Below the pieces are notes generated by a model. That model was given only the letters and a program-made list of their open reading frames with translations. It had not been told where the DNA came from and did not search any database. From Williamsia sp. 1138 (GTDB lineage Bacteria; Actinomycetota; Actinomycetes; Mycobacteriales; Mycobacteriaceae), in contig NZ_MJEJ02000021.1 in assembly GCF_002095435.2 (NCBI RefSeq), forward strand, positions 1 to 50,039: a stretch of 50,039 nucleotides of DNA, in the 5' to 3' direction. A program made the translations under genes and the position numbers. Of this stretch, positions 1 to 46,918 are shown piece by piece (within the stretch, counting starts at the first letter, position 1; every line of letters begins with the position of its first letter).

Positions 1-477
1 GCTGCCGTTGAGCACCCAGGTGTCGCCGTCCTCCTTCGCGCGGGTCTTCATCGACGCCGCATCGGACCCGGCCTCGCGCTCAGAGAGGGCGTACGACGCC
101 ATCGCCTCACCCGAGGCGATCGAGGGAAGCACCTGCTGCTTGAGTTCTTCCGAACCCTTGAGGATCAGGCCCATCGTCCCCAGCTTGTTCACCGCCGGGA
201 TCAGCGACGCTGACGCGTCGACGCGCGCGACTTCCTCGATCACGATGCACGCCGCGACCGAGTCACCGCCCTGACCGTCGTACTCCTCGGGCACGTGGAT
301 CGCGTTGAACCCCGAGGTGGTCAGGGCCGCCAGGGCCTCCTCTGGAAACCGGGAGTTCTCGTCCACGTCGGCCGCGTACGGCTCGATCTCCTTCTCCGAG
401 AGCGCCCGAATCGCAGCACGCAGTTCGTCGTGCTCCTCACCGAGCTTGAACAGATCGAAATCGGGATTGCCGGCCAT
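1..477 (-). CDS. fadE25: Acyl-CoA dehydrogenase, FadE25-like (N-terminal 159 residues, cut by window edge)
   Basis: This frame reads leftward from an ATG at 477 and stays open to base 1, so only the N-terminal alpha-helical domain and the start of the middle domain are present. The translation begins MAGNPDFDLFKLGEEHDELR and contains FNAIHVPEEYDGQGGDS, IEEVARVDASASLIPAVNK and YALSEREAGSDAASMKT. The last block is the acyl-CoA dehydrogenase signature that contacts FAD and substrate. The enzyme should carry out FAD-dependent alpha,beta-dehydrogenation of acyl-CoAs and pass electrons to ETF. Resemblance to mycobacterial FadE25 is from memory and strong. The catalytic glutamate lies outside the window. 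The 87 bases between it and the ligase stop hold no gene. Confidence 0.85.
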   Translation of the reverse strand, partial: MAGNPDFDLFKLGEEHDELRAAIRALSEKEIEPYAADVDENSRFPEEALAALTTSGFNAIHVPEEYDGQGGDSVAACIVIEEVARVDASASLIPAVNKLGTMGLILKGSEELKQQVLPSIASGEAMASYALSEREAGSDAASMKTRAKEDGDTWVLNGS

Positions 478-564
478 GGTTTATATGTTCTTTCGTGTAC
501 TCGCTGGGACGGGAAGTTGCGCAGGGCTAAATGTTTCGGCCGGTGATGCAGAACGGCCGATCAG

Positions 565-2055
565 TCAGTTGGAACTTGGAGGGTGAACCTCGCGCCGGAG
601 TATTTTGCCGGTCGGACCCTTGGGTAGGGAGTCGACGAGCCAGATTTCGCGCGGATACTTGTATGCGGCAATTCGATCTCGTACGAATGACTTGAGTTCA
701 TGAGATGCCGCTTGAACTCCGGGTTTCAGTGCAACGGCGGCACCAACTTCTTCGCCGAGTTCTCGGTGTTTGATGCCAACAACTGCTGCCTCGGCAACCG
801 CGGGATGTTGGTAGAGAACCTCTTCGACTTCGCGTGGGTAAACGTTGTATCCACCGCGGATGATCAGGTCCTTCTTCCGGTCGACGATGGTGTAGTAGCC
901 GTCGGTATCGCGCGTAGCGATGTCGCCCGTGCGGAACCAGCCGTCTGGTATTGCCTCAGCGGTCGCCTCGGGTCGGTTCCAGTACCCATTCATGACGTTT
1001 TCGCCTTGGATGGCGATCTCTCCCGCGGCGCCGTCAGGAACGTCAGTGCCGGCGTCGTCAACTATCCGTAGGTGACATCCGCGCACGGGCACTCCGATGG
1101 TGCCGGGTCGGCGTTCAAGGCCTGGCTGATTGAAGCAGGCGATGGGTGCTGTCTCGGACAGCCCGTACCCCTCGTAAATCTCGCAGGCAAACGTTCGCTC
1201 GAAATTTTTCAGGACCTCAACGGGCATGGCCGCGCCACCGGTGATGCACGTACGCAGTGAAGACATGTCCGCATTGTCGGCTTCAATGGAATGCAGCATC
1301 GCGGCATACATGGTGGGCACCCCCTCAAAGACCGTGACGTTGTCGCGAGCGACAACATTGAGCGCTTGGACTGCGTCGAAGCGGGGAATGAGCGTAAGCA
1401 GAGCGGCCGCCCTGACCGCCGCGTTGAGTCCGCAGGTGAGCCCGAAGACATGGAACAAAGGAAGGCACCCCATGATCACGTCCTCGGGGCCGATCTCGAT
1501 CAAGGTATCTACAGTGGTCGCCGCGTTTGTTGACATATTGCGGTGAGTGAGTTCGGCCCCTTTCGGTTTGCCAGTGGTCCCCGAGGTGTACAGGATGACG
1601 GCAGTGTCATCGTCGGCTCGGTCTGTGGCGGCAAGCAGCGGTCTTCCGGACAGGCCCTCGGGTCCCAAGTGCGGAACGAGTACTGCTGGAATACCGACCG
1701 TTGATGCTGCTGACAAGACGGTGTCCTCGTCGCCGGACAGCCCGTAGATGAGCGCCATGCCGCAATCGGTGAGGTAGTACTCGACTTCGCGTGCCTTGAG
1801 TAAGGGATTCATAGGGACTGCGACCGCGCCGGCCAACAGTATTCCGTAAAAGAGCACCGGAAAAGCAGGAACGTTCGGTAGCACGAGACCCACCCGGTCA
1901 CCGGGTTGAACCCCCCGCGCGCGCAAATCACCCGCTACCGCCCCTGCACGGTGAAGGAGTTGGTCATAACTGAGCACATATTCATCCAGCTGTACTGCTG
2001 GTCGATTGCCGTGCTTTTCCGCGGATGCGATCAAATTGTCGGCGAGACTGGACAT
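565..2055 (-). CDS. Acyl-CoA synthetase (AMP-forming fatty-acid/aryl-CoA ligase)
   Basis: A 496-residue ANL-superfamily adenylate-forming enzyme that activates a carboxylic acid to acyl-AMP and then acyl-CoA. Visible motifs, in order: the phosphate-binding loop [16 protein letters not shown], the adenine-binding GYGLSETAP, the hinge block [20 protein letters not shown] followed by [20 protein letters not shown], and the C-terminal [12 protein letters not shown] with the catalytic lysine. The ATG at 2055 is preferred over the longer open frame because AGGAG lies 7 bases upstream and the normal N-terminus starts there. It is divergent from the TetR regulator, and its presumed promoter at 2195-2223 carries the palindrome shared by four other units here. 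The acid substrate cannot be told from sequence. Confidence 0.9.
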
Positions 2056-2194
2056 AACCGGCTCCTGGTAATAATTGTTCGGCCAATTTCTCGTGGCGTG
2101 CGAGTGACATCGAGCGATGGTGAACGCCGTCTGTACCGACCTAGTCGGATCGCGCGACAGCACTGGTCCGGCGACGTGGTGGATGGCTATCTCC

Positions 2195-2225
2195 AAGATG
2201 GACTGTCTGTCCGCTATTGTCAACA
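2195..2225 (-). promoter_or_regulatory. Promoter with shared 18-bp palindrome (site A), for acyl-CoA ligase
   Basis: Read on the minus strand, TGTTGAC-AATA-GCGGACA covers 2225-2208. The -35 TTGACA is 2223-2218, then 17 bases, then a -10-like CATCTT at 2200-2195. The same layout recurs at four more promoters (6853-6883, 7013-7043, 9429-9459, 9528-9558). The 345-base gap 2056-2400 holds this element and no other gene I can support; the transcript would have a leader of roughly 130 bases. Confidence 0.6.
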
Positions 2226-2400
2226 CAATGTTGAAACTGAGTCATGCGACGGTTCGGCCCTGGTTGAGCGAGATGCTGGGGGTCGGACCGACCTCCACGG
2301 ATACTGCGTGTATCGACGCAGCAACAGGCCCTGGTCGAGCACCCATCACATCTGCTTTGTGTCACACGCTCCGCACGTGCTCGTGTCCTACCATGTACCC

Positions 2401-3063
2401 ATGGTGCCTACATCCTTGAACGGCCTTGGCTCGTCGGAAGCGAAGGTTGGCCGGCGCAATTCCAAAGGAGATATGCGCGAGCAGGCGATCCTTGAGGGTG
2501 CCTACGAACTACTGCGTACGGTGTCGATGCGAAGCATCTCGATAGATGATCTGGCCAAACGGGCCGGGCTGTCCCGGTCGTCGTTCTACTTCTATTACGA
2601 GTCCAAATGGCAGGTACTGTCCGCCTTGCTGTCACGGGTGACGTCTGATGTCTACAGTGCCTCACAGCTGATTTTCGAGCGGCCGGCCGGAATGTCGCCC
2701 GAGGCTGCGATCGAGCACGCAGTATCGGAAGTAATTCAAGTGTGGGAACAGCATGGCCACGTTCTTCGTGAAGTGGGAGATGCCGCTGCGGGTGAAGCGG
2801 AATTGCAGGCGCAATGGGACACCATTCTTGGCCGCTTCATAGACGCCGCTGCGGCAGGAATCGACCGCGATAGGGCTACTGGTGTGGCTATCGATGGACC
2901 ACCGGCAAGATCGCTGGCCGCTGCCTTGATGTGGATGGGCGAACGTAATCTGGCTTTGATGAGTGCACGCAGTGCCAACGCAATCCCTCTGGAAGACATG
3001 GTCGAAACCGTGACAACAGTCTGGTTGCGCACGGTTTACGGTCTGGAGTGGAAACCTCGCTGA
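2401..3063 (+). CDS. TetR-family transcriptional regulator, EthR-like
   Basis: A 220-residue one-component regulator. The N-terminal helix-turn-helix is around residues 45-75 (ISIDDLAKRAGLSRSSFYFY), followed by an all-helical ligand domain ending in TTVWLRTVYGLEW. Overall layout, including a basic GRR stretch before the HTH and a WxxxxYG C-terminus, resembles EthR, the repressor of the EthA monooxygenase in M. tuberculosis. The ATG at 2401 has no clear Shine-Dalgarno. An ATG at 2473 has AAAGGAG only 2 bases away and is a possible shorter start. The longer start is kept because EthR proteins carry this N-terminal extension. It is divergent from the acyl-CoA ligase and is the obvious candidate to bind the shared palindrome, which is inference. 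Confidence 0.85.
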   Translation: MVPTSLNGLGSSEAKVGRRNSKGDMREQAILEGAYELLRTVSMRSISIDDLAKRAGLSRSSFYFYYESKWQVLSALLSRVTSDVYSASQLIFERPAGMSPEAAIEHAVSEVIQVWEQHGHVLREVGDAAAGEAELQAQWDTILGRFIDAAAAGIDRDRATGVAIDGPPARSLAAALMWMGERNLALMSARSANAIPLEDMVETVTTVWLRTVYGLEWKPR

Positions 3064-3086
3064 GCAGCGTACGTCAGGGACCGAAA

Positions 3087-3176
3087 GGTGGTGTCATCGC
3101 TCGTAGTTCGAGCAATGACACCACCGTGCCCGAGGGCAGATGTCCTCGGGCACCCACCGAGGCCTGAAACCTCGGT
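3087..3176. terminator. Three consecutive hairpins between convergent genes
   Basis: Hairpin 1 (3087-3125) pairs GGTGGTGTCAT with ATGACACCACC and has an inner GCTCG/CGAGC stem. Hairpin 2 (3126-3153) pairs GTGCCCGAGG with CCTCGGGCAC. Hairpin 3 (3156-3176) pairs ACCGAGG with CCTCGGT and ends 1 base from the SDR stop codon. None has a long T-run, as is common for actinobacterial terminators. They fill nearly the whole gap between the tetR and SDR stops. Confidence 0.75.
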
Positions 3177-3177
3177 T

Positions 3178-4047
3178 CTAGGGGTTGTCGGCAGCAACCT
3201 TGGTCATGTTCAGTCCCGGCATGAGCATGTGTCCGCCTTCGACCAGCATCTCCAGACCGGTTGTCCATTGAGATTCGTCGGATGCGAGCCACAGGACAGC
3301 CTCGCTCATGGCGCGTGGCGGCAACAGGCCCACGTCACGAAGGGCCGACCAGTACTTCGCTCCCTGCAAGTCCTCTTTGGTGCCCTGGCCTGGGCCCTTG
3401 CCGGCGCACAGGTCGTAGCCGCCCTGCCAATCCAAGGCGGGGGTATCGGTAGGCCCGGGAAGAAGGGAGTTGACCCGGATACCGTACTGGCCGAACTCCA
3501 GCGCGGCCCCCTTCGCCAGCCCGAGGACGCCGTGTTTCGATGCGACGTAGTGGACGTAGTGAGGAGATCCCTCGACGCCATTGCCGGACGAGGTGATGAT
3601 CACCGACCCGCCACCACGCGCCTTCATCGCGGGAGTCACAGCCTTCAGGGTGCGCCATACGCCCATGATGTTGACGTTCAGCACGTCGGCGAACTCGTCT
3701 TCGGGAATGTCTGCGAACGGATGCACAGTCCAGATGCCGGCGTTGGCCACTGCAACGTCGACGCCGCCGAAAACGCGGACGCCCTCGGCAACCAAGTTGT
3801 CGAGTGGCGCTTGCTCGCGGACATCACCTTCGTGGGCGATGATCCGTCGGCCAAGAGCCTCAACCTCTTTCACCGTGATCTTCAGTTCGTCAGACGTGGC
3901 TACGGGATACGGCACCCTGCCATCGGCCGGGCAGTCGAACGCAAGTATGTCTGCGCCCTCTTCTGCGAGGCGGATGGCGTGCGCTCGTCCCTGCCCTCGT
4001 GCCGCGCCGGTGACCAGCGCGACCTTGCCTTCCATTCGTTGTCCCAT
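3178..4047 (-). CDS. Mycofactocin-type short-chain dehydrogenase (carveol-dehydrogenase-like)
   Basis: A 289-residue classical SDR. The nucleotide-binding TGAARGQGRAHAIRLAEEGA is at residues 13-32, NAGIW follows at 102-106, and the catalytic set is S154, Y167 and K171 (YVASK). The wording around the glycine motif, the DCP after beta-2 and the extra segment SDELKITVKEVEALGRRI are typical of the SDR subfamily whose nicotinamide is non-exchangeable and is re-oxidised by mycofactocin. The start at 4047 has GGAGGAG about 6 bases upstream. It follows the VOC gene after 171 bases, so it may be the operon end or have its own promoter; those bases hold only a weak GGGCC/GGCCC hairpin at 4199-4212. The substrate is probably a secondary or cyclic alcohol, by family analogy only. 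Confidence 0.85.
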   Translation of the reverse strand: MGQRMEGKVALVTGAARGQGRAHAIRLAEEGADILAFDCPADGRVPYPVATSDELKITVKEVEALGRRIIAHEGDVREQAPLDNLVAEGVRVFGGVDVAVANAGIWTVHPFADIPEDEFADVLNVNIMGVWRTLKAVTPAMKARGGGSVIITSSGNGVEGSPHYVHYVASKHGVLGLAKGAALEFGQYGIRVNSLLPGPTDTPALDWQGGYDLCAGKGPGQGTKEDLQGAKYWSALRDVGLLPPRAMSEAVLWLASDESQWTTGLEMLVEGGHMLMPGLNMTKVAADNP

Positions 4048-4218
4048 GACTACTCCTCCTTGAGTGATTTACTTGGGGTATGGGTCTAGAGGCCCGCCAA
4101 CTCGGCAGGAATTACTATTTTGTGAAGAATCCCGCGACCGCCGGATGAATGGATCTCTCCGCAGTGTGCGGGTGGCGGTGTGGGGCTGGGTGATCAGTGG
4201 GCCTGACGGCCCGCGACT

Positions 4219-4659
4219 TCAGACGCCGGGTCTGATCAGCTGGAGCAGAACATCGATTCCAGGGGGTTCAGTCCAGACATGTGCCGATTCACCGATAGTT
4301 ATGGGCGCTGCGATGGGGTCACGGCGACCGGGACCCCGAATGCCGCATCCGACGAGTTCAGGTCCGTTTGCGCGGTGCAGTCGGAGGGCTATGTGATCGA
4401 GTTTTGATGTCGCGTCTCCGAGAGCTTCGTCGAGAGCAGACAGATCCTCAACGGTGTACAGCTCGATCTGTGCGCCGCCGGTGTTGAGGAATACCGAAAC
4501 GATATTCATCGCGGGAGCACTGAAAGTCCTGGCGACCTTGACGTCAAACCTCTTGGTCCAGTGGGTGATAGCTGCGTCGAGATCGCGAACGAGTACCCCG
4601 ATATGGTCGAGCCAGGGGAGGTCGTCAATGGCCTCTGCTGCTGGGTTCTGCGGGTCCAT
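4219..4659 (-). CDS. VOC-superfamily protein (glyoxalase / methylmalonyl-CoA epimerase-like)
   Basis: A 146-residue vicinal-oxygen-chelate protein with two beta-alpha-beta-beta-beta modules. Candidate metal ligands are the histidine in WLDHIGVLVRDLD, the glutamate in AQIELYTVE and the histidine in KLDHIALRL. This arrangement is like methylmalonyl-CoA epimerases and related isomerases. The ATG at 4659 has AAGGA upstream and begins only 19 bases after the aldehyde dehydrogenase stop, so the two are co-transcribed. A longer open frame that overlaps the upstream gene is rejected because its extra residues are low-complexity and unlike the family. The exact reaction is unknown; pairing with an MmsA-type enzyme makes an acyl-CoA or semialdehyde substrate plausible. 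Confidence 0.75.
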   Translation of the reverse strand: MDPQNPAAEAIDDLPWLDHIGVLVRDLDAAITHWTKRFDVKVARTFSAPAMNIVSVFLNTGGAQIELYTVEDLSALDEALGDATSKLDHIALRLHRANGPELVGCGIRGPGRRDPIAAPITIGESAHVWTEPPGIDVLLQLIRPGV

Positions 4660-4678
4660 CGCTGATCCTTCTGTTCGG

Positions 4679-6184
4679 CTACTGGTTACCGGCAGCGACG
4701 AAGTGGGGAGCCAGGCCCTGAGTAGGTTCGATCCATCGCTGTGTGACGACCTTGGACCTGGTGTAGAAGCGGTATGCGTCGTAGTTGAGGCCGTCGTCTC
4801 CGAAACGGGAGTCTCCCCAGCCACCGAATCCAAACCACGAAATAGGCACGGGAATGGGGACATTGATTCCGACGCTGCCGGCCAAGACCCCCCGCGTGAA
4901 CCGACGCGCAGCGGGCCCGCTGGTGGTGAAAATGGTCGCGCCGTTGCCGTATGGATTGTCGTTCACAATCCGTAGGGCCTCCTCGAGACTGGAGGCGCGG
5001 ACAACTCCGAGGACTGGCCCGAACACTTCCTGGCGATAGAGGTCGCTTTTTACGCTCACGTTGTCGACCAGGCTCGGTCCGATGAAGTATCCGTCACCGG
5101 GTGCGGATCGTTCGCGTCCGTCTACGACCAGCTTTCCCCCGTCTTCGACGGAACGCTCGAGTGCTCCGCGAACGCGGTTGATCGCAACCTGTGAGATGAG
5201 AGGCCCCATGTCGATCTCCGTCTCGGCGCCGGGTCCGACTTTGAATGCGCGCGCGCGTTCGGCGGTTTTCTCGACGAGTGCTTCTGCGGCGTCGCCAACG
5301 GCCACCGCGATGGTCACAGCCATACACCGCTGCCCTGCAGCGCCATAGGCCGCCGACACCAGAGCATCAGCCGCTGCGTCGAGGTCAGCGTCCGGCATCA
5401 CCACCAGATGATTCTTGGCACCTCCGAGAGCTTGAACCTTCTTGCCCGTTTGGGCTGATCGCCGGTAGATCTCCCGGGCCACGGGCGTGGAACCCACAAA
5501 AGACACGGCTGCTACGTCTGGATGATCCAGCAGTGCCTCGGCTGTCTCGGTACCGCCCTGGACGACGTTGAGGACACCGTCGGGTAGTCCAGCTTCACTC
5601 ATCATCTGCGCCAGGCGAACTGCTGCCGATGGGACGCGGTCACTGGGCTTGAGTACGAATGCATTGCCGCAGGCAATGGCGGCCGCGAACATAGAAACCG
5701 GAACCATGATCGGAAAATTGAACGGCGTGATGCCAACGCACACACCGAGCGGCTGACGGAAGGAGTACGTGTCCACCCCGTTGGCCACCTGATCGGCGTA
5801 CTCACCTTTGAGCTGCTGGACAGCCGACAGCGATACATCGATTGCTTCGACCGACCGTGCTACCTCGCCTCGCGCATCTGGCAGTGTCTTGCCCTGCTCT
5901 GATGTGATGATCGACGCGAGCTCTTCGGTGTGTTCGACTACCAGTGACCGAAATCGGTGGAGTACCGAAGCACGTGCGGGGACGGGGGTATCGGCCCAGG
6001 CGTCCGCAGCCCTTCTCGAGTCGTTCACAGCGTCGTTGACCGTTTCGGCACTCCCCTGGAGGACCGATCGCAACACACGTCCGGTGGCAGGGTCGTGGAT
6101 GTCGGTTCGTGGGCCGTCTGAGGATTCAACGGCTGCGCCGCCGATCCAGTGCGGCACGGCGTCAAGATATACGTCGATAGTCAC
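4679..6184 (-). CDS. mmsA: CoA-acylating (methyl)malonate-semialdehyde dehydrogenase
   Basis: A 501-residue aldehyde dehydrogenase. It has the oxyanion-region motif FNFP (155-158), the GGAKNH signature (254-259) that marks the CoA-dependent MMSDH branch, and the nucleophilic cysteine C287 in GQRCMA. FGGWGDSRFGDDGLNYD near the C-terminus is also typical. The known family reaction converts methylmalonate or malonate semialdehyde plus NAD+ and CoA to propionyl- or acetyl-CoA and CO2. The start is GTG 6184 with GGAGC a few bases upstream. It lies 47 bases after the cupin and 19 before the VOC gene, forming an operon. The symbol names the family; the physiological substrate here could differ. Confidence 0.85.
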   Translation of the reverse strand: MTIDVYLDAVPHWIGGAAVESSDGPRTDIHDPATGRVLRSVLQGSAETVNDAVNDSRRAADAWADTPVPARASVLHRFRSLVVEHTEELASIITSEQGKTLPDARGEVARSVEAIDVSLSAVQQLKGEYADQVANGVDTYSFRQPLGVCVGITPFNFPIMVPVSMFAAAIACGNAFVLKPSDRVPSAAVRLAQMMSEAGLPDGVLNVVQGGTETAEALLDHPDVAAVSFVGSTPVAREIYRRSAQTGKKVQALGGAKNHLVVMPDADLDAAADALVSAAYGAAGQRCMAVTIAVAVGDAAEALVEKTAERARAFKVGPGAETEIDMGPLISQVAINRVRGALERSVEDGGKLVVDGRERSAPGDGYFIGPSLVDNVSVKSDLYRQEVFGPVLGVVRASSLEEALRIVNDNPYGNGATIFTTSGPAARRFTRGVLAGSVGINVPIPVPISWFGFGGWGDSRFGDDGLNYDAYRFYTRSKVVTQRWIEPTQGLAPHFVAAGNQ

Positions 6185-6231
6185 TACTGCTCCATGTCTG
6201 ATGTACTCGACTTGATCGAATGCACTGGCAC

Positions 6232-6795
6232 TCAGGCCTTCTGCTCGCGCGGGTGGGGCAGCTCGGGGAACATTTCGAGGCCATAGTTGACCTTGAGGTT
6301 TTCGACCTCTGCCTGGACCTGCTCGGGCGTGCGGAGCTCGCGATCCCGTGCCTCGTAGAAGTACTTGTCGATTCCGGTATTGGGTTCGAAACCCGCACGA
6401 TCAGGTCCGGGCACAAACATCACGAGGATCCGAGCTTCCTCGCCGACGACCTCGTATGTATGCCTCTGGTCCTTGCGTCCCCAGACGAACTGGCCCTTCT
6501 TCGCGTTGTAGGAACCGGCTTCGGTGTGGATTTTGATCTCCCCATCCATGACGAAGAAACCTTCTTCCTCGCGGTGATGGATGTGCCAGACCGGTTCGGT
6601 GCCGCGGACCCAGTTGGTCTCGATGATGATGAGCTGGCCGTTGGTTGTCTCGCCGGTCGCGTGAATCCAGAAATCAACACCGGTCATGAAATCCCCGGTC
6701 ATGTTGAAGTGGATCTGGTCGCGGTGTGAAACGTAGCTTTCGCCGTCGCGCGAGGTCGAGGGCTGAATCTGGTCTACATCCGAATTGATGGTCAT
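6232..6795 (-). CDS. Cupin-domain protein
   Basis: A 187-residue single-cupin protein. Motif 1 is at residues 70-85 (WHIHHREEEGFFVMDG), giving H71, H73 and a glutamate as metal ligands. Motif 2 spans about 105-116 (GRKDQRHTYEV) with H112. Cupins of this size include dioxygenases, isomerases and sugar or lactone enzymes, so no reaction can be named. The ATG at 6795 has AAAGGA upstream. It is the first gene of the cupin-mmsA-VOC operon and sits about 50 bases downstream of the -10 of shared-palindrome promoter B. Confidence 0.75.
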   Translation of the reverse strand: MTINSDVDQIQPSTSRDGESYVSHRDQIHFNMTGDFMTGVDFWIHATGETTNGQLIIIETNWVRGTEPVWHIHHREEEGFFVMDGEIKIHTEAGSYNAKKGQFVWGRKDQRHTYEVVGEEARILVMFVPGPDRAGFEPNTGIDKYFYEARDRELRTPEQVQAEVENLKVNYGLEMFPELPHPREQKA

Positions 6796-6852
6796 GACAA
6801 TCCTTTCGTGTCGAGGTGCCGTTCGCCGGACGGGAAGCGGCAACTGAAAGTG

Positions 6853-6883
6853 AGAGTAGACTCACAGTTGGTGATAGTCAACA
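6853..6883 (-). promoter_or_regulatory. Promoter with shared palindrome (site B), for cupin-mmsA operon
   Basis: On the minus strand TGTTGAC-TATC-ACCAACT spans 6883-6866. The -35 TTGACT is 6881-6876, the spacer is 17 bases and the -10 TACTCT is 6858-6853, the best -10 of the five related promoters. It shares the 307-base gap 6796-7102 with the oppositely facing site C, and the two palindrome centres are 147 bases apart. I see no gene in that gap. Confidence 0.65.
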
Positions 6884-7012
6884 GTGTGTCGACTTCGGTG
6901 ATGAGACGTGAGCGTCCGCCAGGCCGCGGCGGGGCCGGGCCGCTGTTTGCTGAAACTGTTTGAAGGGAGGGAGGTTTCGTGGCAGAAGGCGCGGCCGGAA
7001 AAATCGACTTAG

Positions 7013-7043
7013 TGTTGACTATTGTCGACCGTTAGTTCATTCT
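7013..7043 (+). promoter_or_regulatory. Promoter with shared palindrome (site C), for DUF3237 remnant-esterase unit
   Basis: TGTTGAC-TATT-GTCGACC occupies 7013-7030, the copy in which left and right half-sites are both well formed. The -35 TTGACT is 7015-7020, the spacer is 17 bases and the -10-like CATTCT is 7038-7043. Transcription would start near 7050, leaving a leader of about 50 bases before the ATG at 7103. Confidence 0.65.
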
Positions 7044-7102
7044 CGGTGGTGGAAGCGCGCCACGCGCGTGTGTTGCCCGCATAAGACGGAGAAGGTTGGT
7101 CT

Positions 7103-7249
7103 ATGAGACTCGAGCCTGAGTTCACTTGTACTGCTGAGCTTGCTGCACCCCAGGTTGTCGGGCCTGGGCCCTACGGGTCACGTCGGGTTCTCGCTGCCAC
7201 TGAGGGCACTGTCTCTGGTGAGGTCCGAGTCGTTCGAGTCGTCCCATGA
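7103..7249 (+). pseudogene. Truncated DUF3237 copy (48 codons), coupled to esterase
   Basis: The frame from ATG 7103 encodes 48 residues. The first 38 or so match the intact DUF3237 protein at 10091 closely: RLEPEFTCTAELAAPQVVG against KLEPEFTYTAELAAPQIVG, then GPGPYG and a GTVSGE/GTVTGD block. It then ends VVRVVP, like the intact C-terminus VFRVVA. An in-frame deletion of roughly 100 codons from a former full copy explains this. DNA similarity to the intact gene is also obvious. Its TGA overlaps the esterase start (ATGA, 7246-7249), so its translation probably feeds ribosomes to the esterase. It may be inactive as a protein yet kept as a coupling leader. Confidence 0.75.
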
Positions 7250-8181
7250 CCGCGCTCGATCCTCAAGTGGCGCAGCTGTTGAACGACCTCGCGGCTAGAC
7301 CGCGAGCCCAGCCGGGGGACGTGTCGATCGCGGACTATCGGCAAGCTGGTGAAAGTCTCGTCGCCTTGGCGGGGCCGCTCAACAAACATTGCGCGGTGGA
7401 CGACATCATCATTCCGGTTCGCGAAGGGTCGGTCGCTGCACGGCGATATCGGCCGTCGGGCAGCACCACTCAACGGCTACCCGGGGTCATGTACACCCAC
7501 GGAGGCGGATTCGTTCGCGGTAGCCTGGATTCTCACGACCGACTCTGCCGGGAACTGTGTGTTCAGGGTGGCCTCATTGTCGTCTCGGTCGCGTATCACC
7601 TGGCTCCGGAGAATCAGTTTCCGCGAGCGCACAATGACGCCCTCGACACCTTCGCATGGTTGACCGACCATGCCATCGAGCTAGGCATCGACGCAGACTC
7701 ACTCGCCGTTGCAGGAGACTCCTCTGGGGCTTCGTTGGCTGTGGCTGTCGCGAATGCCCGTCGAAGCCAGGGTGTGCCCGTGAAGGCGCAGGGCCTTCTG
7801 TGTCCAGCGCTCGATGCCACCATGGGCAGTGACTCGATCGAGCGGTATGGCGAGGGCCCGTTCCTCACCCGCAAGGTTCTGCAGTGGTCGTACGACCTTT
7901 ACGTGCCCAACGCGGGCGACCGCCAGTCGCCACTCGCGTCGCCGGTGCTGGCACGGAGTCTGGAAGGGTCGCCGCCGGCGGTCATCATCAGTGCGCAGGT
8001 TGATCCTGTGGCCGACGACGCCCGCCGTTACAGTGCGAAACTGACCGCGGCAGGAGTGAGTGTTCACAGCGAGGAGTATCCGGGGATGCCGCACAGTTTT
8101 GTTTTGCTCGCAGGCGTTCTGGACAAAGGTGAACACGCCATAGCATCTTTCGCCTCTGGGCTGGCCGGCCTACTCCGGTAG
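7246..8181 (+). CDS. Alpha/beta hydrolase, hormone-sensitive-lipase (GDXG) family esterase
   Basis: A 311-residue hydrolase. It has the oxyanion-hole motif HGGG (85-88), the nucleophile S159 in GDSSG, the acid D253 in QVDPVADD and the base H283 in MPHSF, so a complete catalytic triad is visible. This family includes short-chain esterases and monoterpene lactone hydrolases. The start overlaps the stop of the DUF3237 remnant by ATGA, and its promoter would be site C. A role in opening an ester or lactone in the island's pathway is plausible but not shown. The 122 bases after it, before the convergent reductase, contain a 10-base direct repeat (CGCCTAGACG, twice) and nothing else. Confidence 0.88.
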   Translation: MTALDPQVAQLLNDLAARPRAQPGDVSIADYRQAGESLVALAGPLNKHCAVDDIIIPVREGSVAARRYRPSGSTTQRLPGVMYTHGGGFVRGSLDSHDRLCRELCVQGGLIVVSVAYHLAPENQFPRAHNDALDTFAWLTDHAIELGIDADSLAVAGDSSGASLAVAVANARRSQGVPVKAQGLLCPALDATMGSDSIERYGEGPFLTRKVLQWSYDLYVPNAGDRQSPLASPVLARSLEGSPPAVIISAQVDPVADDARRYSAKLTAAGVSVHSEEYPGMPHSFVLLAGVLDKGEHAIASFASGLAGLLR

Positions 8182-8303
8182 GAACGAGTGTGCGAGACCA
8201 GCTCGGTACCGCAACCGGCGGTAGCCGTCGGAGGATCTCCCGCACAGTTCTCATCGAATCGAACCGCCTAGACGACAGCGCCTAGACGGCCGATCGATGC
8301 GCG

Positions 8304-9338
8304 TTACAGGTCAGCGACTTTGACCACTACCTTGCCTTGAGTGTTGCCGGACAGCGCGCTGTTGAGCGTCTCGCGGGCATGCTCTAGACCATCGACGATG
8401 GTTTCGGCATACTGGAGCGCGCCGCCACCCAGTGCCTTGGCGAGTTCTCCGATGATTTCGCCATATCGATCGACATGGTCGGTGACGATGAACCCCCGGA
8501 GGGTCACTCGTTGCATGAGTAACTGGCTGACATTCTGCAGACCCGGACGGGCACCTTGGTCACTGTAATCGTTGTACTCAGATATTAAACCGCACAGGGT
8601 GATTCGTGCGCCTACATTCAACCTGTCGAGGACGTAGTCCATGATCGGCCCCCCGGCATTCTCGAAGTCGACATCAATGCCTTCAGGAGTTGCGTCGTCG
8701 AGTCGTTCGCGCCAGTCATCGGAATGACGATCGACGCACGCATCAAACCCGATCTCCTCAACCAGATACTCACACTTTGCGGCGCCGCCGGCGATACCAA
8801 CGACTCGGGCACCGCGCTGTTTTGCCAACTGCCCGGCAATGGAACCTACTGCCCCCGCAGCGGCCGAGACAACGAAGGTCTCCCCGGGCTGGGGGTCGCC
8901 GAGCTCCACACCGAGGAAGGCTGAGATGCCGGTATGACCAAGCACTCCCAAGAACGCGGGAAGTGGTGCCGGCAGTGGTTGTGGAAGTATCGTGAAGGGA
9001 ATTTCGAGAGTCGAGTCGTCCGCGATGCAGTATTCCTGCCATCCCGTGAAACCGACCACGAACGCGCCGACCGGAAGGTCTGCCCGCCGACTCGCAACGA
9101 CTTGTCCGACGCCGAGCCCCCGCATGACGGACCCCAATTCGACCGGTGCGATATACGAGCGAATCTGGCTCATCCAGACCCTGTTGGTTGGATCCAGTGA
9201 CAAATAGAGGGTCCGAACCAACGCCTGCCCCTCCTTGATGTCGGCAAGCGGCTCTTCGAGCCACTCCAAGTCATGCTCGGTGACCTCGCCTGTCGGTCGG
9301 CTACGCAGACGGAACTGACGATTGATGGATGTAGTCAT
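8304..9338 (-). CDS. NADP-dependent oxidoreductase, zinc-free MDR family (CurA/PTGR-like)
   Basis: A 344-residue medium-chain reductase. The N-terminal segment has LSLDPTNRVWM, typical of the leukotriene-B4-dehydrogenase/curcumin-reductase branch, and the Rossmann motif AAAGAVGSIAGQLAKQ is near residue 160. The structural and catalytic zinc cysteines of alcohol dehydrogenases are absent. The family reduces alpha,beta-unsaturated ketones or aldehydes with NADPH. The ATG at 9338 has AGGAG 7 bases upstream. It is divergent from the NTF2/DUF3237 operon, and its promoter (site D) carries the shared palindrome. Confidence 0.85.
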   Translation of the reverse strand: MTTSINRQFRLRSRPTGEVTEHDLEWLEEPLADIKEGQALVRTLYLSLDPTNRVWMSQIRSYIAPVELGSVMRGLGVGQVVASRRADLPVGAFVVGFTGWQEYCIADDSTLEIPFTILPQPLPAPLPAFLGVLGHTGISAFLGVELGDPQPGETFVVSAAAGAVGSIAGQLAKQRGARVVGIAGGAAKCEYLVEEIGFDACVDRHSDDWRERLDDATPEGIDVDFENAGGPIMDYVLDRLNVGARITLCGLISEYNDYSDQGARPGLQNVSQLLMQRVTLRGFIVTDHVDRYGEIIGELAKALGGGALQYAETIVDGLEHARETLNSALSGNTQGKVVVKVADL

Positions 9339-9428
9339 GACAACTCCTGAGAGTCAGGGGGATAGAGGAAGGCGAGAGTCGCCACTAGCGATCCCGTACA
9401 CGCTGTATGCGAGGGGACCGACAGAATC

Positions 9429-9459
9429 AGTCTAAACGTGGTGTTGATTATTGTCCACA
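9429..9459 (-). promoter_or_regulatory. Promoter with shared palindrome (site D), for the MDR reductase
   Basis: On the minus strand TGTGGAC-AATA-ATCAACA spans 9459-9442. The -35 TGGACA is 9457-9452, the spacer is 17 bases and the -10 TAGACT is 9434-9429. Half-sites match in 6 of 7 paired positions, the most symmetric of the five copies. Confidence 0.65.
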
Positions 9460-9527
9460 GCATGTCGGCTATTTGTTGAACTCCGTGTTAGGTCTCTGCG
9501 TAGCAACCATTTTCATTATCGACAGGG

Positions 9528-9558
9528 TGTTGACTATTAACGACAGATGGTGCATGTT
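9528..9558 (+). promoter_or_regulatory. Promoter with shared palindrome (site E), for NTF2-DUF3237 operon
   Basis: TGTTGAC-TATT-AACGACA occupies 9528-9545. The -35 TTGACT is 9530-9535, the spacer is 17 bases and the -10-like CATGTT is 9553-9558. It lies back to back with site D, palindrome centres 86 bases apart, in the 273-base divergent gap 9339-9611. Confidence 0.65.
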
Positions 9559-9611
9559 CGACTGACGGGTGGTTGTGTCACAGCCGCCGGAAGCGAACAT
9601 TGGAGGCGCGA

Positions 9612-10094
9612 ATGAATGCACAATCTGACAACCGCCGGGTGGTGGAACAGTTCTGGGGGGCCCTGGATGATGGACCGCCGAGCGGATCGGCTTTGGAGGC
9701 GTGGAAGAAGTTCTTTGCACATGACGCTGTCTGGGAAATGCCGTTCGCGCCCGAGCCCCTGGTGCAAGCAGTTCCGGGCGGCGAACTCATCGGTCACTTC
9801 ATCGATTGGTTCTTTGAGTCGGTGCCGGACCTGCGCATCGATTCGCTGACGATCCACGACACAGCGGACCCCGAGCTGTTCATCCTGGAGCTGCATGGAA
9901 CGGCGACTGTCTCCCAGACCGGCAAGATCTATGCCAACACCTACTGCACGCACATGCGGATTCACGATGGCCAAATCGTTCTTCTGCGTGAGTATTTCAA
10001 TCCCGAGGTTGTAGTCGAGGCCTTCGGACGTGATGAGATAGCAAAGGGAATGTCGACAGTGATGGCTGCTGCCGGAGTGGGGGTTGGTCAGTGA
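9612..10094 (+). CDS. NTF2-fold protein, SnoaL/PhzA-PhzB-like
   Basis: A 160-residue protein of the nuclear-transport-factor-2 fold. WKKFFAHDAVWEMPF, a helix with HFIDWFFESVPDLRIDSL, and a final strand HDGQIVLLREYFNPEVVVEAFG are typical of SnoaL/PhzB-type proteins. Members are ketosteroid-isomerase-like isomerases, cyclases or epoxide hydrolases. The catalytic Asp-Arg-Asp set of limonene-epoxide hydrolase is not evident. The ATG at 9612 is preferred over an upstream open frame because GGAGG precedes it. Its TGA overlaps the GTG of the DUF3237 gene (GTGA, 10091-10094), so the two are translationally coupled. Confidence 0.75.
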   Translation: MNAQSDNRRVVEQFWGALDDGPPSGSALEAWKKFFAHDAVWEMPFAPEPLVQAVPGGELIGHFIDWFFESVPDLRIDSLTIHDTADPELFILELHGTATVSQTGKIYANTYCTHMRIHDGQIVLLREYFNPEVVVEAFGRDEIAKGMSTVMAAAGVGVGQ

Positions 10095-10549
10095 AACTCG
10101 AACCTGAATTCACCTATACTGCGGAGCTTGCTGCACCTCAAATTGTCGGGCCGGGGCCCTACGGGTTGCGTCAGGTTCTCGCCGTCACCGGTGGCACTGT
10201 CACTGGTGACCGCATCAGCGGAAAAGCCGCGCCTGGTGGTGGTGATTGGCTGTTGGCCGGCGATGATGGTTTTGGTCGCCTGGATGTGCGGGCGCAGTTC
10301 TATACCGATGACGGAGCGGTCATCTACATGAACTACCTGGGTTTGGTGGAGGTCACCGAAGCTGCTGCCGGCGCGCTCGGTGGCGGGGATACCGGTACCG
10401 ACTTCGGCGATCACTATTTCGTTACCACACCGCGTCTGGAGTGTGGCGACGCCAAGTACACCTGGGTCAATCAGAGCATTTTCGTCGGCCAAGGACGTGT
10501 CCGACCCGGGCCCGTCGTCGAATTCCAAGTGTTCCGGGTCGTCGCATAG
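10091..10549 (+). CDS. DUF3237 family protein (intact copy)
   Basis: A 152-residue protein starting at a GTG coupled to the preceding stop. It shows the DUF3237 pattern: an N-terminal strand KLEPEFTYTAELAAPQ, IVGPGPYGLRQVLAV with GGTVTGDRISG, a central GGDWLL...DGFGRLDVRAQF, and a late TTPRLECGDAKYTWVNQSIFVGQGR-type strand (about 113-137). The family forms a small beta-barrel of unknown enzymatic role, often found beside hydrolases and oxidoreductases in catabolic clusters. The truncated relative at 7103 shows the gene was duplicated within this island. It is followed by a terminator-like hairpin at 10621. Confidence 0.8.
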   Translation: MKLEPEFTYTAELAAPQIVGPGPYGLRQVLAVTGGTVTGDRISGKAAPGGGDWLLAGDDGFGRLDVRAQFYTDDGAVIYMNYLGLVEVTEAAAGALGGGDTGTDFGDHYFVTTPRLECGDAKYTWVNQSIFVGQGRVRPGPVVEFQVFRVVA

Positions 10550-10620
10550 ATCGGTGTATTGCAAGGTGAGGAATCTGTAGTTCGGTCTGCAATTCGTGCA
10601 GTAGGCGTCATCTTGCAGTC

Positions 10621-10654
10621 TGGGCCGCCGACCAGGTAGTAGGTCGGCGGCCCA
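10621..10654 (+). terminator. Hairpin terminator after the DUF3237 gene
   Basis: A perfect 13-bp stem pairs TGGGCCGCCGACC with GGTCGGCGGCCCA around the 8-base loop AGGTAGTA. No T-run follows. It is 71 bases after the DUF3237 stop. The rest of the 288-base gap before the aminotransferase shows no gene. Confidence 0.65.
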
Positions 10655-10837
10655 GCGACTCGTAACCCTCGCGAAGGAGTAACACCATCATCACCAGCAG
10701 CCTCCTGGCCGTGCCCGGTATGGGCTTGAGAGGTGTTCCGAGACAGTGGATTGGCACCCGTTCGCCCGCGAACACGACGAGACAAACGGTGAATAGAAGT
10801 GCGCACAGTTTCACGCTCGGGTTGCTACGGTCCACCT

Positions 10838-12094
10838 ATGACCACCCGCGCCACGTCTGAACTCTCGGCTGATTTCGGACCGATAGATCCTCCTGTCCGC
10901 CTGTTGATGGGGCCCGGCCCGATCACGGCATATCCGCGGGTGCTGCAGGCGATGTCTGCTCAGCTGGTCGGTCAGTACGACCCGTTCATGACCACGACCA
11001 TGAACGAAGTGCAGGCCCTGTACCGCGAGGTGTTTGTCACCTCCAACGATGCGACGCTGGTCGTCGACGGCACCGCACGGGCCGGCATCGAGGCCGCGCT
11101 GGTCTCGTTGATCACCCCTGGCGACCGGGTCCTGGTGCCGAGGTTCGGCCGCTTCGGCCAACTGCTGGTCGAGATCGCTGAACGCTGTGGGGCGCAGGTT
11201 CACGCCATCGATGTCGAGTGGGGCCGCGCCTTCGACGCCGAAACAATCGAGGCCGCAATCAAAGCCGTGCGCCCGAAGCTGCTCGCCATCGTCCACGGCG
11301 ATACCTCGACGACGATCGCTCAGCCGCTCGACGAGCTCGGAGCGATTTGTCGCGAGTACGACGTGCTGTTCTATTGCGATGTCACCGCCAGCATTGCGGG
11401 CAACCGTCTGTTGACCGATGAGTGGGGCATCGACGCTGTGTCGGCCGGTTTGCAGAAGTGTCTCGGCGGCCCGTCGGGTAGCGCGCCAGTGACTCTGTCT
11501 CCCAGGGCTGTTGAGGTGATCGAGTCACGCAAGAGCATCGAGGCCGGTATTCGTGACCCTGACAGCGTGGTCCGCGAGAACCGGGTCCAATCCAACTACT
11601 TCGACCTGGGTCAGATTCTGGATTACTGGGGACCGAAGCGGCTGAACCATCACACCGAAGCGACGACCATGCTCTACGGTGCGCGCGAATGCGCACGCGT
11701 GCTACTCGACGAGGGGCTGGACAACTGCTTGTCGCGGCACCGCGTGCACGGCGAAGCGATGCTCGCCGGAGTTCAAGGACTGGAGTTGAGCGCGTTCGGC
11801 GACCTGCGGTACAAGATGACGAACGTTGTCGGAGTGCAGATTCCGGAAGGGGTGCACGGCGAGGCGGTACGCGCCGACCTGCTCACTGACTACGGCATCG
11901 AGATCGGTACGTCGTTCGGGCCTCTCCACGGACGGATCTGGCGGATCGGAACAATGGGTTACAACGCTCGTCGCGACGCGGTCCTGACCACGCTGACGTC
12001 CCTGGAGTCGGTGCTCCGCCGCCACGGGGTCAAGGTCCCCGTTGGTGGCGGCAGCGATGCAGCCATCCATCACTACATATCTGCGAAGCCTTGA
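10838..12094 (+). CDS. Class V aminotransferase, alanine/serine-glyoxylate or ureidoglycine-glyoxylate type
   Basis: A 418-residue PLP enzyme of the AGT/PucG group. The N-terminal LLMGPGPITAYPRVL, the VVDGTARAGIEAAL region, IVHGDTSTT, FYCDVTASIAGN with the PLP-ring aspartate, and SAGLQKCLGGPSGSAP with the Schiff-base lysine are all visible. Family members move an amino group from alanine, serine or ureidoglycine to glyoxylate; the donor here is not determined. The ATG at 10838 matches the family N-terminus better than an upstream in-frame start. It is a single gene with no operon partners, bounded by hairpins on both sides. No purine-catabolic neighbours support the ureidoglycine option. Confidence 0.85.
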   Translation: MTTRATSELSADFGPIDPPVRLLMGPGPITAYPRVLQAMSAQLVGQYDPFMTTTMNEVQALYREVFVTSNDATLVVDGTARAGIEAALVSLITPGDRVLVPRFGRFGQLLVEIAERCGAQVHAIDVEWGRAFDAETIEAAIKAVRPKLLAIVHGDTSTTIAQPLDELGAICREYDVLFYCDVTASIAGNRLLTDEWGIDAVSAGLQKCLGGPSGSAPVTLSPRAVEVIESRKSIEAGIRDPDSVVRENRVQSNYFDLGQILDYWGPKRLNHHTEATTMLYGARECARVLLDEGLDNCLSRHRVHGEAMLAGVQGLELSAFGDLRYKMTNVVGVQIPEGVHGEAVRADLLTDYGIEIGTSFGPLHGRIWRIGTMGYNARRDAVLTTLTSLESVLRRHGVKVPVGGGSDAAIHHYISAKP

Positions 12095-46658: not shown

Positions 46659-46918
46659 AGTGGCATCTATCGCGGTGTTTCCGATGTAGCCACCATCTGC
46701 GCAGGCCCCCGGCCCGGATGATCCGGCACAGGCTACACAAGCTGCGGGCGGCTCTCAGGTAGCAATCGGTACTGTTCTAGGCGAATGCGCAAAGTTGTGT
46801 CGAACCTGACTCGTCTGACCGCCTTCGACCGCCCAGCACAGGCTGCGGGGCGCCGCAAAGTAAAGTGTTGGTCAAGTCCGGTTGCGGTGCTCCGGCATAA
46901 AATTATGGAGTAACACTC

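Follow-up and report, generated by a model that had tools for sequence, protein, structure and literature searches.

The DNA analysed here, referred to below as the window, is a stretch of 50,039 nucleotides from Williamsia sp. 1138 (assembly GCF_002095435.2, contig NZ_MJEJ02000021.1, positions 1-50,039, forward strand). Five copies of a 41-bp element are found in the window, each built into a promoter. With a probability of about 85%, these are the operators of the EthR-like TetR-family regulator encoded from position 2401, through which ten putative breakdown genes would be controlled together; binding, repression and a ligand are what we infer from sequence comparison. Direct computation gave the sites with their architecture, conservation and exclusivity, as well as the co-occurrence of the TetR gene and the dyads shared with EthR genes. 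A shared regulon under this TetR protein had been proposed in a first-pass annotation of the same DNA, and the proposal is supported by the conservation of sites and TetR together in five genera, by the exclusivity of the element in its genome and by the dyads at EthR genes. As read from its genes and sites, the system is a local catabolic regulon of the EthR type, a kind already known; no published description of this particular regulon was found in literature searches.

A 41-bp element with two dyads in five promoters

The five copies of an 18-bp palindrome listed in the first-pass annotation (2208-2225 (-), 6866-6883 (-), 7013-7030 (+), 9442-9459 (-) and 9528-9545 (+)) were all recovered at these positions and on these strands, together with the fixed promoter geometry that it had described, the distance from a TTGAC-like -35 to an nAnnnT -10 being 17 bp in five of five sites. 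The sites align without gaps as a single 41-bp element, with agreement reaching well beyond the 18 bases of the palindrome (Table 1). This element consists of two 15-bp dyads, TCRACA-N3-TGTYGA followed by a looser copy, with 21 bp from centre to centre; operator 1, for instance, is made of a TCAACA-N3-TGTTGA dyad and a second, degenerate one. The letters shared by the window sites are TCRACA, three free bases, TGTTGACWAT, an AC of the spacer lying within a CRAC-like half-site and a GT leading into the -10. Most of the -35 is held by the first dyad, and the second runs through the spacer into the -10. By our own count the -10 boxes match TATAAT at just three of six bases in four of the five window sites.

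When 56 sites from many genomes were aligned, the 41 columns were again free of gaps, 11 of them were invariant across both dyads and the -10, including A36 and T40 of the -10, and information dropped outside columns 1-41. Over 87 sites, complementary pairs amounted to 63% around the centre of the first dyad, 54% around the centre of the palindrome and 40% around the centre of the second dyad, with a mean of 25% for all centres; for the five window sites alone the first two values were 64% and 60%, a small margin. The single 18-bp palindrome, which had been taken as the operator, is weak in itself (5 or 6 of 9 pairs), and the strongest symmetry over the 87 sites lies 10.5 bp further upstream. 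Since the 15-bp dyad is fixed and the distance between dyads varies from 20 to 21 bp, the palindrome is rejected as the binding unit, and single 15-bp dyads with at most one mismatch in four loci of the EthR clade defined below (L072, L075, L078 and L079) also contradict it. What remains of it is the inner pair of half-sites, within a real element that begins 9 bp further upstream and extends to the -10.

Specificity of the element in the window and the genome

The consensus given with the palindrome was rejected as a genome-scan pattern because it is too loose. With up to three mismatches it matched 31 times in the window against 12.3 expected, and 1390 + 1372 times in the genome, where the reversed pattern matched 815 + 804 times. 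A 41-column model was built from the 56 sites, the window's five included, and run on the 6.08-Mb genome, 150 of 1515 first-look candidates being scored. At E <= 1 it returned the five sites (E 6e-10 to 1e-4) and site 4 in the reversed orientation (+ strand, 9436-9465, E 0.055), and no other match among the candidates scored. The first-pass annotation had counted many matches across the genome as a sign against the regulon: its own loose consensus does match widely, but the 41-bp element is nearly exclusive to the five sites.

Because the 41-column model contains the five sites, a matrix was also made from 72 distinct non-Williamsia sites, themselves originally found with a matrix of the window sites. 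The five sites ranked first to fifth in the window with this matrix (27.7 to 59.8) and site 4 reversed ranked sixth (17.7), the best score over 20 simulated windows being 10.2. De novo motif search, carried out with no input from the window promoters, gave the same motif in a Nocardia (L046), a Mycolicibacterium (L039) and a Rhodococcus-type locus (L026), and recovered it only partly in a Pseudonocardia locus (L034). A chance origin of the five sites is rejected on the basis of the genome exclusivity, the simulated windows and the zero control matches in the 25 loci compared below.

Conservation of the sites together with the module and its TetR gene

A relative of the SnoaL protein of the window was present at E <= 1e-40 in 10 of 301 family genomes, the window's own included, and scanning named genomes yielded 36 loci that hold a SnoaL relative, the first 23 at 66% identity or more. 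The comparison was made on 25 module loci (L021, L022, L025, L026 and L032-L052; 403,910 bases in total), leaving out L030 and L031 as duplicates of the congeners G002 and G003, and keeping the 13 loci with 27-39% identity (L053-L065) as controls. The genes for ligase, TetR, SDR, VOC, ALDH, cupin, esterase, MDR, SnoaL and DUF3237 proteins were found together in Williamsia, Mycolicibacterium, Pseudonocardia, Nocardia and Rhodococcus (L052, with L025 and L026 by a shared genus code), in several orders and with some genes missing at contig ends. A TetR orthologue, 78-100% identical, was found in 22 of the 25 loci, the other three (L044, L049 and L052) being cut by contig ends first. TetR is the sole regulator among the twelve window proteins sought in these loci, and it is present in every locus not cut in this way.

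With the window matrix, 85 sites scoring at least 20 were found in the 25 loci, none of them inside a mapped gene. Their nearest mapped gene downstream was SnoaL (25), MDR (21), cupin (15), ligase (9), esterase (6) or DUF3237-esterase (6), so that 82 of the 85 point at a mapped module gene; the other 3 run towards a contig end. At the same score no control match was obtained in the 25 loci, either with reversed sequence or with ten column-shuffled matrices. L037 and L039 have five sites each. The Pseudonocardia loci L032, L034 and L035, in which SnoaL-DUF3237 and then the genes from esterase to SDR run in one direction, keep just the two sites between MDR and SnoaL. No site match was obtained in the 258,120 bases of the distant SnoaL loci (L053-L065). 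In nine module genomes all model matches (39/39) fell in the module region, and a search of 121 relatives under stricter filters gave, apart from those in module genomes, two matches in G030, one in G314 and one in G019.

The TetR protein and dyads at the genes of its EthR-type relatives

The TetR protein encoded at 2401 matched EthR_C (PF21313) at 89.2 bits (cut-off 27, E 2.9e-25), the TetR_N helix-turn-helix domain at 38 bits (cut-off 24) and solved EthR chains at E about 1e-29, and EthR proteins are its closest characterised relatives. The best 30 EthR_C loci of a longer list comprised 14 above 130 bits, hereafter the EthR clade, 13 with lower scores and 3 module regulators. In a tree of 50 regulators with a midpoint root only, from which the fragment L095 was left out, the module proteins formed one clade (support 98/97), the EthR clade another (100/99), and 12 of the 13 others stood apart (100/99); the regulator of locus L139 formed a long branch of uncertain place. 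The module TetR lies outside the EthR clade, whose proteins are 33-39% identical to it. SRSSFYFY is the recognition helix of every module regulator and of the L139 regulator; all 14 EthR-clade genes have SRPTFYFYF, and 10 of 12 regulators without sites have TRS(A/G)FYFYF, the exceptions being L084 (TRPA) and L088 (SRSA). Some open frames of about 430-570 codons (G000:C6:32418-33395 and 46799-47812; also G005:C19 and G029:C18) each match EthR_C twice and perhaps encode double TetR proteins.

With at most one mismatch, the 15-bp dyad was found at the regulator start in 13 of the 14 EthR-clade loci and at the regulator start of none of the 13 in the more distant EthR_C group. It is doubled in nine EthR-clade loci, with a spacing of 20 bp in L066-L068, L074 and L076 and of 21 bp in L069-L071 and L073, and dyad spacing may be a lineage-specific trait in this clade. 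When the 41-bp model was applied to the 27 non-module EthR_C loci, nine matches were obtained at E <= 1, all in loci of the EthR clade. The 55-bp operator of EthR, as summarised in PMC9210681, is bound by an octamer and contains a long direct repeat, TCAACG(T/A)NATGTCGA, in two copies, as well as two inverted repeats. The long direct repeat of that summary is the 15-bp dyad with one base changed, and by our own arithmetic three dyads at 20 bp span exactly 55 bp.

The pattern TCGACA-N3-TGTTGACTAT, with at most one mismatch, matched in 17 of 251 family genomes, its exact matches all lying within module regions. Seven off-module loci were examined, three further matches being left out, and in three of the seven (L146, L147 and L150) the match stands at the start of an EthR_C regulator (148-167 bits). 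In G030, which has no SnoaL relative at E <= 1e-40, both sites flank an EthR_C regulator (L139 1183-2115) that is 36.6% identical to the window TetR (39 bits). The orthologue in 22 of 25 loci, the dyad at EthR-clade genes, the published EthR repeat and these blind matches make the TetR protein a well supported candidate for the regulator.

Proposed control of the five promoters and its alternatives

For TetR binding, repression rather than activation, stoichiometry and effector, we infer the following scheme. Each operator would carry two TetR dimers on one side of the helix, an arrangement allowed by the 21 bp, or two helical turns, between the dyad centres. With most of the -35 inside the first dyad, and the spacer and the beginning of the -10 under the second, such occupancy would be expected to deny RNA polymerase access to all five promoters simultaneously. 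A pathway-linked compound (a substrate, or an acid or CoA-ester intermediate) would probably bind the EthR-type C-terminal pocket and release the repressor, and this release would switch on the ligase, cupin-ALDH-VOC-SDR, esterase, MDR reductase and SnoaL-DUF3237 units together. The placing of ALDH, VOC and SDR in the cupin unit, whose sole basis is gene order, is putative.

Several observations weigh against this scheme. The second dyad is degenerate, at the 40% complementary pairs given above for 87 sites. Sub-threshold matches with scores of 12-15 occurred five times inside the MDR gene and three times at positions covered by no mapped gene and away from promoters. The Pseudonocardia and Nocardia loci showed no site next to the TetR gene, and site 1 of the window lies about 170 bp from the TetR start; on these two grounds autoregulation of TetR is taken as not conserved. 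Within the EthR clade, L077 has its sole dyad on the 3' side of the gene. In the siteless group the DNA ahead of the regulator often has a coding appearance, so that the operators of this group could lie elsewhere. The reversed control of the TCGACA-N3-TGTTGACTAT pattern gave 4 matches in the family genomes, the matches in L144, L145 (G019), L148 and L151 are not beside an EthR_C TetR gene, and no EthR_C regulator was found near the G314 match.

It is unlikely that TetR acts instead as an activator or dual regulator, binding the upstream dyad and recruiting RNA polymerase to promoters with poor -10 boxes. Class II activators bind close to -40, the first dyad is centred near -40 of the assumed promoter, and the -10 boxes are indeed poor in four of five sites, at three of six bases. 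On the other hand, the second dyad extends across the spacer into the -10, a placement suited to exclusion, and EthR is described as a repressor in the accounts given in PMC5700317, PMC9210681 and PMC5895659.

That an unlinked regulator binds the sites, the TetR gene being a mere neighbour, is very unlikely. The TetR gene itself has no site in some genera, which would suit such a regulator. Against it, the strong matches are in genomes with the module and TetR, several of the others are beside EthR_C regulators, the dyad fits the EthR repeat as summarised in PMC9210681, and TetR is the one regulator sought that occurs in every locus uncut by a contig end.

A promoter class alone, in which the five promoters would share the -35 and -10 of one sigma factor and no operator, would account for the TTGAC at -35, for an A and a T that never vary in the -10 and for the fixed 17-bp spacer, but it is highly improbable and is rejected on the counts in the 25 loci, the genome scan and the simulated windows, as the most conserved columns include the TCRACA upstream of the -35 and the spacer AC, which promoter recognition does not need, just five such elements exist in the genome and the dyad is also present at EthR genes.

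Gene content of the module

Coordinates of the ten module genes and of the five proposed operators, which the preferred reading assigns to TetR, are collected in Table 1.

Table 1. Proposed operator/promoter sites and module genes in the window
Feature	Coordinates	Strand	Remarks
Operator/promoter 1 (proposed)	2194..2234	-	Ligase unit, ligase-TetR intergenic region; 41-column model E 2.1e-5
Operator/promoter 2 (proposed)	6852..6892	-	Cupin-ALDH-VOC-SDR unit; 41-column model E 6.3e-10
Operator/promoter 3 (proposed)	7004..7044	+	DUF3237 remnant-esterase unit; 41-column model E 7.3e-8
Operator/promoter 4 (proposed)	9428..9468	-	MDR reductase unit; 41-column model E 9.6e-5
Operator/promoter 5 (proposed)	9519..9559	+	SnoaL-DUF3237 unit; 41-column model E 8.8e-8
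AMP-binding acyl-CoA ligase	565..2055	-	Longer frame 565-2226 scanned; conserved in module loci
EthR-like TetR-family regulator, proposed repressor	2401..3063	+	PF21313 EthR_C and TetR_N
Mycofactocin-coupled SDR oxidoreductase	3178..4047	-	TIGR03971 over cut-off
VOC (glyoxalase-like) protein	4219..4659	-	Longer frame 4219-4863 scanned
CoA-acylating methylmalonate-semialdehyde dehydrogenase type ALDH	4679..6184	-	TIGR01722 over cut-off
Cupin protein	6232..6795	-	Longer frame 6232-6843 scanned
Alpha/beta hydrolase esterase, LipP1-like	7246..8181	+	Under cut-off of the LipP1-like model
MDR-type reductase, curcumin-reductase-like	8304..9338	-	Under cut-off of that model
SnoaL/NTF2-like protein	9612..10094	+	Longer frame 9573-10094 scanned
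DUF3237 protein	10091..10549	+	SnoaL-DUF3237 unit

The ligase, ALDH, SDR, esterase, enone-reductase-like MDR, cupin, VOC, SnoaL and DUF3237 proteins together resemble the enzyme set of a peripheral breakdown pathway. Lignin dimers are substrates of SnoaL-like enzymes. A plant-derived aromatic compound may be named as substrate, as a fair first guess and no more, because relatives of the DUF3237 protein are described as decarboxylases in lignan-type catabolism (PinX, PhcF and PhcG in the account of PMC12607616, where PinX was at that point a prediction).

A 48-codon in-frame remnant of a second DUF3237 gene lies at 7103-7249 (+), between operator 3 and the esterase gene; its start and end are kept and its middle is lost. 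Differing DUF3237 remnants are present in the other two Williamsia loci (L022 near 10600-10730, L021 near 7340-7500), and six Mycolicibacterium-type loci (L033, L037-L039, L041 and L042) have a DUF3237 gene of normal length at that position. The G+C content is 58-62% over the module (window 1-12000) against mostly 64-69% further on. Together with the patchy spread of the module (10 of 301 family genomes, and also Pseudonocardia), this low value suggests that the module was gained by horizontal transfer.

Relation to known regulators and significance

EthR, the TetR-family repressor of ethA, resembles the module regulator in its EthR_C and TetR_N domains, in a similar recognition helix and in 15-bp dyads (TCRACR-N3-TGTYGA) set in series at 20-21 bp, the second dyad being degenerate in the module element. 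The two differ in that the module TetR, 33-39% identical, belongs to a separate clade (98/97 against 100/99) and has a CoA ligase and an SDR gene as neighbours, whereas an FMO/Baeyer-Villiger-type monooxygenase is the neighbour in both EthR-clade loci checked (L066 and L073). EthR serves one divergent promoter, while the module has five promoters, each with two dyads built into the -35 and -10. KstR, KstR2 and BkaR, as presented in PMC4482099, are alike in the TetR-type control of nearby catabolic units through palindromic operators; the module differs by its ligand-domain family (EthR_C) and has a double 15-bp dyad with a 21-bp period. MftR, the TetR regulator of mycofactocin genes, is similar in that a TetR protein lies near a mycofactocin-coupled SDR, and the identification of the window TetR as MftR was rejected (26.8 against the TIGR03968 cut-off of 224.9).

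In the part of the mycobacterial TetR survey concerned with EthR (PMC4482099), its physiological role is stated to be unknown and its motif to depart from a classical palindrome. As a drug-target regulator EthR has been studied intensively, and a related clade with five conserved operators shows the operator as a simple dyad code, which helps in predicting the targets of related regulators from sequence. An EthR-type sensor tied to a defined set of enzymes also makes the natural ligand class testable in environmental bacteria. A broader reading, to which we give somewhat less than even odds, is that a whole superclade of EthR-type repressors uses the TCRACA-N3-TGTYGA dyad, at a period of 20 or 21 bp, as its common operator code, the module being an undescribed multi-promoter regulon with promoter and operator fused into 41 bp. 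If this were true, the ancestral role of EthR-type regulators, EthR included, would be the sensing of a catabolic intermediate, which, to judge from the DUF3237 and SnoaL enzymes of the module, may derive from a lignan- or phenylpropanoid-like compound.

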